A DNA stretch of 64,000 nucleotides, from assembly GCA_013215775.1 (NCBI GenBank), contig JABSQO010000009.1, positions 1-64,000 on the forward strand. Direction: 5' to 3'. The DNA comes from Piscirickettsiaceae bacterium. GTDB lineage: Bacteria > Pseudomonadota > Gammaproteobacteria > Nitrosococcales > Methylophagaceae. Both the position numbers and the translations under genes were made by a program. The notes beneath the pieces are model-generated. The model had not been told where the DNA came from. It made no database searches and saw only the letters and a program-made list of their open reading frames with translations. Of this stretch, positions 1,207-52,312 are shown one piece after another. Numbering within the stretch: the stretch's first letter is position 1; each line of letters begins with the position of its first letter.

Positions 1207-1250
1207 GTTAACTAAACGATACCCTTGCTACGCTTTTCATCACTGTTAGA
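1207..1250 (-). pseudogene. possible short relic of a CYTH gene 3' end
   Basis: Just after the tonB stop, the minus strand reads GGGTATCGTTTAGTTAA. Apart from one missing T this is identical to GGGTTATCGTTTAGTTAA, which encodes GYRLVK at the end of the CYTH gene at 4842-5477. With the T restored the translation upstream is SDEKRSKGYRLV, against SDSSKAQQGYRLV in the intact gene. It may be a duplicated or leftover CYTH tail on the far side of the integron. The match is short, so chance or a decayed paralogue is possible. Confidence 0.35.
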
Positions 1251-1476
1251 CAATGACCCTGATAACCCCATTTTTACAGCCTACTTAACCTGAACTCTGG
1301 ATAAAAATAGTCAGAAAGATTTTAATTTACAGTAACTTGTCAACGATCACCTCTAGCCTATAGAGAAAATCCTGATGGTTATTTTAGCCAGTGCACTTAT
1401 TTTAGCGGATATTCATTTCAAGTTGGCTGAGGTTCCCCTTGATTCTTGACCCCTTGATTCTTACAGTGCAGTGATT
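1251..1476. other. intergenic junction at the outer end of the integron; no gene seen
   Basis: There is no convincing reading frame. It contains a tandem 13-nt direct repeat, CCCCTTGATTCTT at 1435-1447 and 1450-1462 (period 15), beside the point where the fourth cassette's attC breaks off. No R' core (GTTRRRY) in a suitable place completes the attC, so this is probably a deletion or insertion junction. Confidence 0.5.
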
Positions 1477-1486
1477 TGTTATACAT
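1477..1486 (-). repeat. truncated attC of cassette 4 (R'' core only)
   Basis: The minus strand reads ATGTATAACA. TGTATAAC is the exact reverse complement (8 nt) of GTTATACA at the start of the same cassette (2361-2368). No partner R' or hairpin follows toward 1400, so the site is broken. Confidence 0.7.
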
Positions 1487-2330
1487 TGTTGTATTCTTTT
1501 ACTTTCTGTTGAAGCTCTTTATCATCTAAATCACGTATATCATCACTTTTTGCAACATCCCATATTCTAGCTAACTCTTCTATTTCTATATCTGAATAAC
1601 TCCCTTCTTTTTGAAGTTGAGAGGGATTTATTTTTGCCAAACAACTTACAGCAAACCAATCAACTAATATAGAATTTGGATGCTTCTTAGCTGGATGCCA
1701 TTTACCCGTAAGGCCAAGATATTTATGGAATGTCCCGACTTCAAAAGAAGTTCCGTCACTCATGTTCTGTTTCCACATATCTGCAATCATCTGCTCGTCT
1801 TTAAACTCTTTCATAAGGTTCATGCCTAAAAGTGAATTCTTAGGTAAATTATCTAAGCAGAGTTTAATTTTCTTATTTGTCTCATTACTGGTTATGATTT
1901 CTGCTCTTAAAGCTATTAAAGGAAGTATTACCGCATATGCGGATAGCCCAAGAACAGTAGAGCGGTCAATTCGTTTACCATTCCATAATAAATGAGTGGG
2001 AATATTATCAACAACCTCCCATTCTGCATTTATTCTCTTTCGTGATTTATTTATAACATCACAAGCCCAAAGTATAAATTGACCATTTGTCCTACTGGCA
2101 TAGCCAATAGCATCAACTTCGTCATCAGTAGTATTGAAGTGTTCTATTATTCTTTTAGCACTGTCAATTTTAAGCTTTCGTTTTGTGTCTTTATACCCTT
2201 TAAGCTTTTTTACTCCAGACATACTATTAGAAAGTAGCCCAACAAAGCATAAAGTTTTTTTATCTGATGGCTCAAGATTTTCTGAAGGTTTTGCATCTAT
2301 AAAAACTGGTATAAACCTTTCATTATTCAT
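1479..2330 (-). CDS. integron cassette 4: unidentified 283-residue protein
   Basis: No confident family. It is a soluble-looking protein with no signal peptide. A conserved-looking N-terminus (FIPVFIDAKPSE, then TLCFVGLLSNS), a central strand with LCLDNLP, and a late ILVDWFAVSCLA leave Asp residues spaced somewhat as in RNase H-fold DUF3800 proteins; that is a weak guess by eye. The stop codon TAA (1479-1481) lies inside the R'' core of its attC, as in many cassettes. The first cassette base is near 2367, so the start is about 37 nt in. There is no clear Shine-Dalgarno before the ATG. Expression would need read-through from upstream cassettes or an internal promoter. Confidence 0.75.
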   Translation of the reverse strand: MNNERFIPVFIDAKPSENLEPSDKKTLCFVGLLSNSMSGVKKLKGYKDTKRKLKIDSAKRIIEHFNTTDDEVDAIGYASRTNGQFILWACDVINKSRKRINAEWEVVDNIPTHLLWNGKRIDRSTVLGLSAYAVILPLIALRAEIITSNETNKKIKLCLDNLPKNSLLGMNLMKEFKDEQMIADMWKQNMSDGTSFEVGTFHKYLGLTGKWHPAKKHPNSILVDWFAVSCLAKINPSQLQKEGSYSDIEIEELARIWDVAKSDDIRDLDDKELQQKVKEYNNV

Positions 2331-2361
2331 TAAATAGATAATTCCATATCTTTATTTCTGT

Positions 2362-2448
2362 GTATAACGCTTTGCTACGGGGCTGACGCGTAGCGGCAGT
2401 CCCACGAAGGGCTGGAAGCCCGAAGTAAACTTGAGCAACTTGTTATAC
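2362..2448 (-). repeat. attC site of cassette 3
   Basis: An 87-bp imperfect inverted repeat. On the minus strand it opens with R'' GTATAACAA (plus 2442-2448 region), has TTGCT pairing with AGCAA as inner boxes, a central hairpin with GCTACG/CGTAGC, and closes with R' GTTATAC (plus 2362-2368). R'' is a 9-nt perfect reverse complement of the first bases of cassette 3 (plus 2783-2791). The structure matches integron attC sites and ends of the VCR type. Confidence 0.88.
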
Positions 2449-2454
2449 ATTTTG

Positions 2455-2775
2455 TTACCAAGCTCCTACTTTACATGCTGCGACAAGTTTTGAAACCGCA
2501 ATTGGTTCTTTATTTGCAGCCAAGTGCTCATCTCTATATTTCACTTTACGAAATAAATAGATAAGGCCTTTAGAACAAGGTTCATTTCGAAAGTGTTTTT
2601 TAAAGTAAAAGTTGGTTAAATCAAGGCCATATTTTTCATGGCACTTATCAAATAATTCCCAAGCATCATCACCATCAAGCCCAAGATCACCTAACAAGGT
2701 ACTTTCACCAGAAATTTTAGATATTGGGACACCTGATTCTTCACTTATTAATTTTATGAGTTCACTTTCTATCAT
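2455..2775 (-). CDS. integron cassette 3: DUF1493 family (acyl-carrier-like) protein
   Basis: A 106-residue protein. Residues near 20-40 read STLLGDLGLDGDDAWELFDK, the hallmark of DUF1493, a family with an acyl-carrier-protein-like helical fold ('DLGLDGDDA.EL'). The serine that carries phosphopantetheine in true ACPs is not obvious; D-G-D-D stands there instead. A longer frame begins at 2799, but that would start inside the attC of cassette 2, so I chose the ATG at 2775, 15 nt inside the cassette (MIESELIKLI). DUF1493 genes occur in cassettes and islands; their function is unknown. The stop lies just before R''. Confidence 0.8.
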   Translation of the reverse strand: MIESELIKLISEESGVPISKISGESTLLGDLGLDGDDAWELFDKCHEKYGLDLTNFYFKKHFRNEPCSKGLIYLFRKVKYRDEHLAANKEPIAVSKLVAACKVGAW

Positions 2776-2784
2776 TTCTATGAT

Positions 2785-2852
2785 GTATAACGTCGCCATA
2801 ATTTTCCGCCTGAAGCGCAGCGTAAGGCGGTCAAATTGATGGCCTTGTTAGC
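2785..2852 (-). repeat. attC site of cassette 2
   Basis: A 68-bp attC. The minus strand opens AGCTAACAAGGCC (R''), contains a strong central palindrome CCGCCT...AGGCGG (plus 2807-2831), and ends with CGTTATAC (R'). R'' AGCTAAC is the exact reverse complement of GTTAGCT at the start of cassette 2 (plus 3683-3689). The TAA stop of the cassette 2 gene (2848-2850) is part of R''. Confidence 0.9.
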
Positions 2853-3660
2853 TCTTGTTGTTGCGGTCATACACTTCACCTTCGTGAACATGTCGATTTT
2901 GCTTATGGTAAATATACCGCCTTGGTCCCTGCTCAATACCAAAGCCATTATGAAAATCCCCAGACCAAAGTTCAATTTTTGATAATGGATCGGAATAATT
3001 CTCAGGGTACTTCATGAATTTGTATATCGCGACAACCGAACTTTCCGAAAGCCCTCCTGATTTTGGCTCTGGTGTAACTTTATCTATTGTTACTGAGTAG
3101 GCGGTGATTGGCGATGAAGCGCTAATGGCTGCATCATCTAGTGATAGGCCACTATCCCTCCAATTATCCACGCCGTAGAAAAACTGGGCTGGCAATGACA
3201 CTTTATCAGACAGGTTAGGATCATCTGGCTCTGTTTGTAAAACTCGATACAATTGATTTCTTAACCTTTCTTCTGCATGGCTAAATGCCTTTTTATATTG
3301 AGGCAGGTTAATTTCATTCTTTAGATCAATAGAACTATAAAGAATTCTTGCCGCCCGAATCCAAGTGACTCGATTGTTATTTAAATCTTTTAAAAGCTCA
3401 TATGTTTCATCAAATCCTTCTTTAGCGAGCATCAAGTTTATTTCGTCACTTTTTCGCTTACCTTCAGTTACCTGAGAAGCCTTGTCACGCAGGTACGTAA
3501 TAGATGCAATTAAGACACCTGAGCTTATAGCAATTGCAGGAAGAGTAGTCATCTTACTTTGCTCGATTAAACAGACTGGGATTAACCCAAATACATTGCC
3601 TATAGCTATAAGCAGCGTGGCAAGGGCGATGGTTACGAGAAGTATTACAATTTTATTCAT
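2848..3660 (-). CDS. integron cassette 2: unidentified membrane-anchored protein
   Basis: A 270-residue protein with two N-terminal transmembrane segments (about residues 4-25 and 39-58) joined by a short loop, then a charged cytoplasmic helical region (about 60-130) and a C-terminal domain of about 130 residues rich in Ser/Asp/Tyr. I do not recognise a family. It is the only gene of an 898-bp cassette (2791-3688) and starts 26 nt after the cassette boundary. No Shine-Dalgarno is apparent. Confidence 0.75.
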   Translation of the reverse strand: MNKIVILLVTIALATLLIAIGNVFGLIPVCLIEQSKMTTLPAIAISSGVLIASITYLRDKASQVTEGKRKSDEINLMLAKEGFDETYELLKDLNNNRVTWIRAARILYSSIDLKNEINLPQYKKAFSHAEERLRNQLYRVLQTEPDDPNLSDKVSLPAQFFYGVDNWRDSGLSLDDAAISASSPITAYSVTIDKVTPEPKSGGLSESSVVAIYKFMKYPENYSDPLSKIELWSGDFHNGFGIEQGPRRYIYHKQNRHVHEGEVYDRNNKS

Positions 3661-3682
3661 GATGCTTCATTTATATTTGGGA

Positions 3683-3764
3683 AGCTAACGATCTAAATAA
3701 GGGCGCGACGTTAGGAGCGTCCCAGTGAGCGGAGCAAACGAACTTGATATTTTTGTTATATGTC
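3683..3764 (-). repeat. attC site of cassette 1
   Basis: An imperfect inverted repeat of about 80 bp. The minus strand opens GACATATAACAAA (R'') and ends CGTTAGC (R', plus 3684-3689). The interior has a GACG/CGTC stem. The 10-nt R'' GACATATAAC is the perfect reverse complement of GTTATATGTC at the attI junction (plus 4383-4392), which is how the two ends of one cassette must match. Confidence 0.9.
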
Positions 3765-4370
3765 AACATGTTCAGGTAGTGCACTTACTCGTATAAGCTT
3801 TTCATCTTGCGGCTCAAGTGCTATTAGGTATGGTTCCATTCTACTCGGTTTAGAGGCTATTAATTCTTTAACAATGCTATGGTCTTCATTCACAAATTCA
3901 ATAATAGATTCGATATATATCATTGTAGCTTTATCGAATTCTTCTTCAGACCAGTTAGTTTCATACAAAAATTTCACACGCTCATTATTTTGACCAACGC
4001 AGTACAAGCTTAAGATTAGTGAATATTTCGTATATGGAGCTTTTTTCTGTGCATTTCGAGATCTGAGGGCTTCAAGCTGATATTGAGAGTTGCCACCAAA
4101 GTATTTCTTATAAAGTTTTGATAAGCCTTTTTTGATATATGGATAAGAGTCTTCAGCTGCCTTATCACCGAGTTTTTTAACAAAAGCAGTGCCAAATACA
4201 ATAGCAACAGAGCTCAACATGAGTAATAAAATTGATGCTTGTGGACCTTTTTCAGGTAAAGCATGAAAATCAACATCATCACGAAAAATTAAAAGTGAGT
4301 CTTTCAGTTGAGTAACAACATCCTCATCAATATGCTCTTCGAATGCGATATTTAAATTATCTTGGTTCAT
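3756..4370 (-). CDS. integron cassette 1: unidentified 204-residue protein with one membrane segment
   Basis: An acidic N-terminus of about 40 residues, one hydrophobic helix (about 45-65, SILLLMLSSVAIVFGTAFV), then a basic helical stretch (YIKKGLSKLYKKYF) and an acidic C-terminal region. No family is recognised. It is the first cassette after attI and the only one with a visible Shine-Dalgarno (AAGG, 8 nt before the ATG, minus strand). As the attI-proximal gene it would be the best expressed if the integron promoter still works. The TAA stop lies inside the attC R''. Confidence 0.75.
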   Translation of the reverse strand: MNQDNLNIAFEEHIDEDVVTQLKDSLLIFRDDVDFHALPEKGPQASILLLMLSSVAIVFGTAFVKKLGDKAAEDSYPYIKKGLSKLYKKYFGGNSQYQLEALRSRNAQKKAPYTKYSLILSLYCVGQNNERVKFLYETNWSEEEFDKATMIYIESIIEFVNEDHSIVKELIASKPSRMEPYLIALEPQDEKLIRVSALPEHVDI

Positions 4371-4382
4371 TTGAAAACCTTA

Positions 4383-4420
4383 GACATATAACAGTATGTT
4401 TATGAGGCCGCTGGCCTCAT
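4383..4420 (-). other. attI-like site with adjacent perfect palindrome
   Basis: On the minus strand the sequence ACTGTTATATGTC marks the attI/cassette 1 junction (crossover G^TT at plus 4392/4391). Beside it, at 4402-4420, is a perfect palindrome: ATGAGGCC, a 3-nt loop, then GGCCTCAT. On the plus strand it is followed by AGTTTTTT, so it could also act as an intrinsic terminator facing the integrase gene. The exact attI limits cannot be fixed by eye. Confidence 0.6.
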
Positions 4421-4586
4421 AGTTTTTTCGCTTGTTTTATGGGTGTCACTATACTATTGAAAAACATAGCAATTTTAACAAGCTCTATTTTTGAGGTGGA
4501 AAATAAGGCCATTGGCTTGATAAATATTGACTTCACTGCTTAATCCGTTATTTTATAAGTGGATTTTCAAGGATGAGGCTAATATC
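4421..4586 (-). promoter_or_regulatory. integrase/array intergenic region, probable place of the cassette promoter Pc
   Basis: In integrons the Pc promoter lies between intI and attI, or within intI, and reads into the array. The minus strand here has TTGTTA followed about 19 nt later by TAGTAT/TATAGT (around 4440-4475), a poor sigma-70 match. No LexA box of the CTGT-N8-ACAG type is visible. The location is inferred from the family, not from a strong motif. Confidence 0.3.
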
Positions 4587-4816
4587 ATGAGCAAATCTCC
4601 CTTTCTGCAATCCGTTGAGTCATTTATGCGTGTTCGGCAATATAGCCGCCGCACGATCACAAGTTACCTCTATTGGATTAAATATTTCATAATTTTTAAT
4701 AATAAGCAACATCCGTCAAAGCTGGGGGATGCTGATATTGAGCGATTTCAACCTATTTGACGGTGGAGAAAGGAGTGAGAAGCCCGCTGAGTAACTTGTC
4801 ACTATTTGCTGGCTAA
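4587..4816 (+). pseudogene. intI: integron integrase IntI, N-terminal relic, frameshifted and truncated
   Basis: The first 54 codons (MSKSPFLQSVESFMR... LYWIKYFI...QHPSKLGDADIERF) match the N-terminal SAM-like core-binding domain of IntI tyrosine recombinases, including the YSxRT.xxYLYWIK.FI and HP..LG..D/E motifs. The frame then stops at 4758-4760. In a second frame from 4748 the continuation YLTVEKGV can be read, as expected for the intact 'FL..LAVEK.V', ending at TAA 4814-4816. So there is a frameshift near 4748, and the whole catalytic domain (R...HxxR...Y, about 250 residues) is missing. It points away from the cassettes, which is the standard integron arrangement. Confidence 0.85.
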
Positions 4817-4841
4817 CGCCAATTCAATAGGCTTGTTTGAG

Positions 4842-5477
4842 TCAGCTATTTGAGGGCAAAATATTCCTTTTAACTAAACGATAACCCTGTTGTGCTTTAC
4901 TGCTATCACTTGGTTTTACCGCTAAATGTGAACAGACAAACGTTGCAAACTGCTTTAACTGCTCAACTGAACCGGTCATTAATTCCAGTTCAATTTCATG
5001 GATTGTATCGACCAAATTACCCGCTGACACCTGACCACGATCATAAGCCAGCTCGACTGTGGTATTTTCTGGCAAGCTTATCTGTAGTGTTTCACGCACA
5101 AAATCAGTGGTAAAAATAGGCTGTAATGTTGCCCAGAGATCGGCATTGTTAATGATGGGCGCTAATGGGGTTTGTTGTAATTTCTCTAAATCCCAATCTG
5201 CACTCTCTAGTTCATGTTCCCATTCATCCCGTTGATGAAGGCCGTCTTTCACCACACCTGATGTTTTCACCGTCTGCAAATAGCGATCATTCTTTTTGCG
5301 TAATCGTAAGCCTAGATCTTGTTTGAACAACTCGCTATCCGCGGTATCGAAATAGGTATTCATTAAATGATATGTTTCAATTTTGCCATCTGCAAATCCT
5401 GTCAGCCATGACAATGCTGACAAATCCAATTTGTCTTCACTGAGGACACGTAATTTAATCTCTTGTTCTAAACTCAT
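4842..5477 (-). CDS. CYTH domain protein, probable inorganic triphosphatase
   Basis: A 211-residue protein covering a single CYTH domain. The N-terminal EQEIKL provides the ExExK signature that binds the triphosphate with metal ions. Later charged strands (LGLRLRKKNDR, EWEHELE, HEIELEL) line the tunnel. E. coli YgiF has this domain plus a CHAD domain; the CHAD half is absent here, so this is a stand-alone CYTH protein. It lies 7 bp after uvrA on the same strand. Tripolyphosphate hydrolysis is likely, but adenylate or thiamine-triphosphate substrates cannot be excluded. Confidence 0.8.
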   Translation of the reverse strand: MSLEQEIKLRVLSEDKLDLSALSWLTGFADGKIETYHLMNTYFDTADSELFKQDLGLRLRKKNDRYLQTVKTSGVVKDGLHQRDEWEHELESADWDLEKLQQTPLAPIINNADLWATLQPIFTTDFVRETLQISLPENTTVELAYDRGQVSAGNLVDTIHEIELELMTGSVEQLKQFATFVCSHLAVKPSDSSKAQQGYRLVKRNILPSNS

Positions 5478-52069: not shown

Positions 52070-52139
52070 ATATTACTCACCCACTTCGTCCGACTGACTC
52101 TGTTGAGTTATTTCCTTATTTACACTAGAATACTCTCCT

Positions 52140-52207
52140 GAATAAGGAACGCTGCACCGGAGACATCCCTCTGCTAGGCTTATTCTATTTTCACTTTAAC
52201 TGCGTTC
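52140..52207 (+). ncRNA. S-adenosylhomocysteine (SAH) riboswitch
   Basis: P1 is a perfect 7-bp stem GAATAAG (52140-52146) / CTTATTC (52179-52185). The conserved core AACGCTGCAC and TAGGCTTATTC matches the SAH riboswitch consensus GAGCGCUGCA...CAGGCUC. The pseudoknot is perfect: GAACGC (52147-52152) pairs with GCGTTC (52202-52207). SAH riboswitches turn on SAH-recycling genes when SAH builds up. Here it controls metK-ahcY-metF. Confidence 0.88.
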
Positions 52208-52312
52208 ATTATTGGTTAGGTATTTAATAATAATGAGCGTTGCATCTATGTTTTCATCAACCACCTTCGATCAGCTTCACACCTTCCCTTTTTACAATAA
52301 GGTAAGTTGCTT

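Follow-up and report, generated by a model that had tools for sequence, protein, structure and literature searches.

The DNA analyzed here (the window) is a stretch of 64 kb from a Methylophagaceae genome of 2.22 Mb, assembled in 48 contigs and 99.8% complete. Within it, a 3.6-kb segment lies between a tonB-like gene and a CYTH gene, which are convergent neighbors in relatives. The segment contains a plus-strand fragment of an integron integrase gene (intI), followed on the minus strand by an attI site and four genes (Table 1). The attC sites bound single genes in one orientation, heading away from intI. Taken together, these features identify the segment, almost certainly, as the remains of a decayed integron, inserted between two housekeeping genes of a marine bacterium that consumes methanol.

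Table 1. Features of the segment and its junctions, in window coordinates
Feature	Position	Strand	Basis
Left junction, second copy of CYTH gene 3′ end	1207..1236	none	Direct repeat of 4872-4897; homology to G024
Dispersed intergenic repeat of the genus, near truncated end of cassette 4	1283..1412	none	Sequence copies
attC4, left half (right half missing)	1464..1485	-	R′′, spacer and L′′-like stretch
Cassette 4 gene, 283 aa	1479..2330	-	ORF
attC3	2362..2448	-	Best R2 match in window
Cassette 3, 423 bp	2368..2790	-	G|TTA crossover points at both ends; R′′/own-start match
Cassette 3 gene, 114 aa, DUF1493	2455..2799	-	PF07377, E=2.7e-7, 31.7 bits, above cut-off
attC2	2785..2853	-	R2 match; bottom-strand fold
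Cassette 2, 898 bp	2791..3688	-	DNA copy in Methylophaga sp. NORP65
Cassette 2 gene, 270 aa, with hydrophobic segments at N terminus	2848..3660	-	ORF
attC1, AT-rich L boxes	3683..3761	-	Weakest of three R2 matches
Cassette 1, 703 bp	3689..4391	-	R′′/own-start match
Cassette 1 gene, 204 aa	3756..4370	-	ORF
attI core, CATACTG|TTA on cassette strand	4389..4400	-	Conserved in nine other integron heads of the family
attI-adjacent inverted repeat, ATGAGGCC-GCT-GGCCTCAT	4402..4420	none	Conserved pairing
intI relic, N-terminal ~54 codons, then 1-nt frameshift	4587..4770	+	TIGR02249; G019 IntI
intI relic, C-terminal ~10 codons (GVRSPLSNLS) plus ~40 bp of downstream DNA	4770..4839	+	80% to G019 intI 3′ end (L038 1068-1138)
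Right junction, where homology to the uninterrupted CYTH gene of relatives begins	4872..4897	none	Comparison with G024

The integrase relic and the insertion

A preliminary description of this DNA proposed a relic sedentary integron of four gene cassettes beside a broken integrase on the opposite strand. The broken integrase is present at 4587-4798. Positions 4587-4748 match the integron-integrase profile TIGR02249 (5e-13), with a score of 49 bits that is far under the cut-off of 265 because the fragment is short. The N-terminal piece is 89% identical to the IntI of a relative (G019), and the fragment is a true relic of IntI. It keeps the first ~54 and the last ~10 residues, and the ~750 bp between them have been deleted. 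The deletion fuses the N-terminal part to the C-terminal codons at a AAGGAGTG-like short repeat; on nucleotide alignment with the G019 gene, it lies between two short stretches that resemble each other, AGAGGGGTG and ACAAGGAGTG in G019. The missing DNA encodes the catalytic arginines and histidine of IntI and also its tyrosine, that of TEIYTHV. An intI with catalytic residues and the IntI-specific domain, as found in a functional platform, is absent from the locus, and no LexA-box-like site was found in the intI promoter region.

The tonB-like and CYTH genes are uninterrupted in all 24 relatives having both, lying within 100 bp of each other in 20 and 0.2-0.8 kb apart in the other four, and the 3.6-kb insert is absent from every one. 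The observation that had been named as speaking against an integron, the same gene order in relatives without core sites, was not encountered; relatives have no array between the adjacent tonB-like and CYTH genes. In the closest relative (G024), where the locus is also uninterrupted, homology ends at 1236 on the left and resumes at 4872 on the right with an overlap of 26 bp. These 26 bp, from the 3′ end of the CYTH gene, form a direct repeat on the two sides of the insertion, and 14 nucleotides, TTAACTAAACGATA, are identical at 1208 and 4870, the two insertion ends.

Other repeated sequences occur in the segment. The repeat at 1283-1412 has copies of 70-81% identity in the source genome (contigs C34 and C1 among them) and in relatives, and 1418-1459 beside it is another intergenic repeat dispersed in the genus; neither showed a transposase. 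AGTAACTTGTCA is found at both 1331 and 4790, which may be chance. Elsewhere in the window, an Rfam scan gave a SAH riboswitch at 52138-52214 (RF01057, 39 bits) as its sole match.

attC sites and cassettes

Relatives carry intact intI genes and arrays with the same kind of attC sites. A first attC model (R1) was built from 22 clean sites in arrays beside such genes; 77% of the cells in its structure are paired, compared with 62% after shuffling and no more than 41% when slid controls are used. R1 lacked the variable stem, found only attC2 in the window, weakly, and was replaced. The set was extended to 58 attC sites of relatives and rebuilt as a covariance model (R2) that includes no window sequences. 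Searching both strands of the 64-kb window with R2 gave 34.1 bits for attC3, 27.8 bits for attC2 and 20.5 bits for attC1, and 10.0 bits for the next best match. All three sites are on the minus strand, at the three predicted cassette boundaries. The scores given by this independent model are far above background, the comparison that the preliminary description had named as a test. Folding of the bottom strands, which it had also proposed, distinguishes attC2 (z -3.3) but not attC1, whose unconstrained fold is no better than shuffled sequence, so that free folding misses it.

The R′′ core of each cassette was said to be the reverse complement of the first bases of that same cassette. The four matches are found where predicted, with lengths of exactly 10, 7, 9 and 8 nt for cassettes 1 to 4; the sizes given for cassettes 1, 2 and 3 are also exact. 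Stop codons fall inside R′′ in three cassettes, as had been noted, namely 1, 2 and 4, and just ahead of R′′ in cassette 3. The contention that such matches exceed chance stands as well. Among 43 cassettes, nearly all from arrays of relatives and the rest from the source genome, the match of R′′ to the start of its own cassette averages 8.3 nt, compared with 4.5 nt for the starts of other cassettes drawn from the same array. The complementarity is well beyond chance, yet it is a general rule of cassettes that is not peculiar to this array, being the ordinary outcome of R′′ and R′ sharing one stem in the circular cassette (cf. PMC2727003).

Cassettes 1-3 are complete. Cassette 4 is truncated, as only R′′ (TGTATAAC), a spacer and an L′′-like stretch (TCACTGCACTG) of attC4 survive, and R2 gives no match to it in the 64-kb window. 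The proposed array of four cassettes is therefore better described as three complete cassettes with their attC sites, and a fourth with half a site.

The gene of cassette 3 encodes a DUF1493 protein that is acyl-carrier-protein-like, with LDG at the position usually occupied by the serine of DSL. No family could be assigned to the proteins of cassettes 1, 2 and 4, that of cassette 4 having no match in Pfam, NCBIfam, PADLOC or PDB. The AlphaFold models for cassettes 4 and 2 (pLDDT 37 and 42, respectively) were too poor for a structure search. None of the cassette proteins belongs to a defense family (PADLOC) or to a phage family of known function. Cassette 2 has a DNA copy of 83% identity in Methylophaga sp. 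NORP65 (G006). The similarity runs from the crossover TTA to R′′, as fits a cassette that moved as a unit; no recognizable attC is present at the copy.

We considered whether the attC sites and core matches could be chance inverted-repeat matches around ordinary genes. Although attC1 by itself is weak, nothing else in the 64 kb outscores the three sites with a model trained elsewhere, they lie on one strand and fall at cassette boundaries, and the homology in NORP65 is bounded by the cassette. This idea is refuted, and we give it virtually no credence.

attI and its inverted repeat

The attI site lies between the intI relic and cassette 1, with its crossover between 4392 and 4391. It is placed beside the 5′ end of intI, and its core and flanking hairpin are common to other integron heads. 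A simple consensus scan for the cassette promoter Pc gave only plus-strand candidates.

The inverted repeat adjoining attI is conserved. Nine aligned integron heads have ATGAGGCC-N3/4-GGCCTCAT or a compensated variant, of 8-11 bp. In this alignment of nine related sequences, a small number, 100% of the cells are paired, two pairs are changed on both sides, and 6 of 500 shuffles were as good. At the same place, four other loci of the family (L047, L030, L045 and L028) have a repeat that differs in sequence and is perfect or nearly so; these are among the loci noted for an attI-side inverted repeat, the rest being L031, L032, L035, L041, L042, L043 and L046. In other families, an inverted repeat of at least 8 bp is found in 9 of 26 intI upstream regions, compared with none of 26 coding segments of equal size and an expectation of 0.6 by shuffling. 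We suggest, tentatively, that the repeat may be a functional and undescribed part of attI, acting in recombination directionality or the control of cassette expression, and that whole intI-attI platforms may relocate repeatedly in the Methylophagaceae. The hairpin is a testable feature of attI sites.

The attI-intI unit also bears on a different origin for the locus, as a cluster of attC sites lacking an integrase (CALIN) that arose by off-target insertion of cassettes at attG-type sites beside an unrelated recombinase fragment. Scattered attC sites without intI elsewhere in the genome (below) suggest that cassettes can occur at odd sites. However, the N- and C-terminal pieces of IntI, the attI core and the attI hairpin are in canonical order and orientation here, with 85-87% DNA identity to other integron heads. 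The attI-intI unit refutes such an origin, which we regard as highly improbable.

Decay and possible movement of integron platforms

A search of the rest of the genome for a larger array or a complete intI had been proposed. The assembly contains no intact intI, nor a larger array with a complete one, and its other matches to TIGR02249 are weak; a C-terminal IntI-like piece on contig C21 that resembled a second integron is XerC beside polA. What was found instead was two more decayed heads and scattered attC sites, R2 locating further sites on contigs C2, C34, C15, C9 and C17. The second head, on C2 (L069 8680-9025), has a truncated and frameshifted intI with at least five cassettes, and is 85% identical in DNA sequence to the window across attI and the start of intI. 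Its cassette genes encode DUF6338, ZIP, AraC-type HTH, UDG, EamA and GFA proteins, and its insertion site lies between an EI24-like gene and icd, a convergent pair found side by side in eight relatives. The third head, on C17 (L073 4312-5346), comprises the first intI codons, attI, just one cassette, for a 1-Cys peroxiredoxin, and an attC site. The attC sites on C34, C15 and C9 (L070, L071 and L072) are away from any intI remnant, and are possibly off-target cassette insertions.

Of 57 genomes of the family, 20 have an intI match at 1e-40 or better, and attC sites occur in 49. The presence of attC without intact intI is thus the commonest state, with the proviso that many of these genomes are drafts, from which some intI genes may be missing. 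One genome of the same genus (G012, 99% complete) has no intI, yet its attC matches number 32 and form many scattered arrays over several contigs.

The complete integrons of the Methylophagaceae (G019, G004, G038, G050 and others) share with the window the same IntI clade and attC grammar, together with the attI core and hairpin, except that the attI of G019 lies beyond the end of its contig. They differ in having a full-length intI (with one in-frame stop in G019), in several cases a longer array, and other chromosomal positions. These intact integrons adjoin genes that differ between the relatives examined. The insertion in the window is unique to the source genome among those examined, rather than occupying a conserved "sedentary" site. 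Of the proposed relic sedentary integron, then, the relic and its chromosomal context are upheld, but the conserved locus and usual complement of more than 10 attC sites of a sedentary chromosomal integron are not found: the insertion is genome-unique, with only three complete attC sites.

Could the segment have come in a larger mobile element, an island or transposon carrying the integron? The 26-bp repeat of the CYTH 3′ end at both sides would then be the trace of integration. The uniqueness of the insertion, the different neighbors of the intact integrons of relatives, and the position of the C2 head, again between convergent genes, are all consistent with this. Yet neither a transposase nor a further integrase was found in the 3.6 kb, nor were convincing terminal inverted repeats at its ends; the C2 insertion shows no matching repeat by eye, and on the left a dispersed repeat conceals the original end. 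We consider such an arrival possible though doubtful. It concerns the origin of the segment and not its identity, and could be compatible with a dead platform.

We are nearly certain that the locus was a chromosomal integron platform, comprising intI, attI and at least four cassettes, which died after its insertion between the convergent tonB-like and CYTH genes. Its parts, their order, the deletion and the insertion are legible in the DNA itself. The past activity of the platform, the order of its decay and any mobility in trans we infer as follows. In the active phase, IntI would have recombined double-stranded attI, at 4392|4391, with attC sites that circular cassettes present as a folded bottom strand, each new cassette being added next to attI; R′′ is complementary to the first bases of its own cassette because both join into one attC stem in the circle. 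A later deletion between the short repeats would have fused intI codon ~54 to the last ~10 codons, removing the catalytic residues. The far end probably lost one half of attC4 together with any sequence outside it, and the dispersed repeat is now found there. With the capture enzyme deprived of its catalytic core, the gene cassettes would be frozen in place. The remaining cassettes probably cannot move alone, but an external IntI could still excise them. The low score of attC1 and its unconstrained fold, the failure of the simple scan to recognize a cassette promoter, and the low score of the intI fragment count against the platform; since the fragment is below the family cut-off, a strict pipeline would label the locus a CALIN.

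The locus joins an already known class of decayed integrons. Inactive intI genes are common, at about one third (PMC2426708), and intI loss is a proposed route to CALINs (PMC8618304). By the definition of IntegronFinder 2.0 (PMC9024848), at least two attC sites with no intI above the cut-off, the locus is a CALIN, with three attC sites and no functional intI; unlike a bare CALIN, its intI remnant and attI indicate an origin by intI loss in place. The closest likeness is to the sedentary chromosomal integrons of Xanthomonas, where intI truncation and CALINs occur at several loci (PMC12444791; intI pseudogenes, PMC2426708). These have the same intI-attI-cassette order, an intI destroyed by deletion and a frozen array of genes mostly of unknown function. 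The Xanthomonas integrons, however, keep one locus (ilvD), whereas each of the Methylophagaceae relatives examined has a different neighbor, and the source genome combines three decayed heads with the absence of an intact intI. The three decayed heads in one genome, and platform positions that change among relatives, are the less usual aspects here. A limited search of the open literature found no paper on the integrons of Methylophaga as such.

The locus is a clear case in which the death of an integron can be read from its anatomy, one deletion having removed the recombinase while the captured genes remained. Since one genome that lacks an intact intI contains three decayed heads as well as scattered attC sites, and the intact integrons of sister species are located elsewhere, the Methylophagaceae would be a good group in which to study the formation of CALINs and the relocation of whole integron platforms, not just of cassettes.
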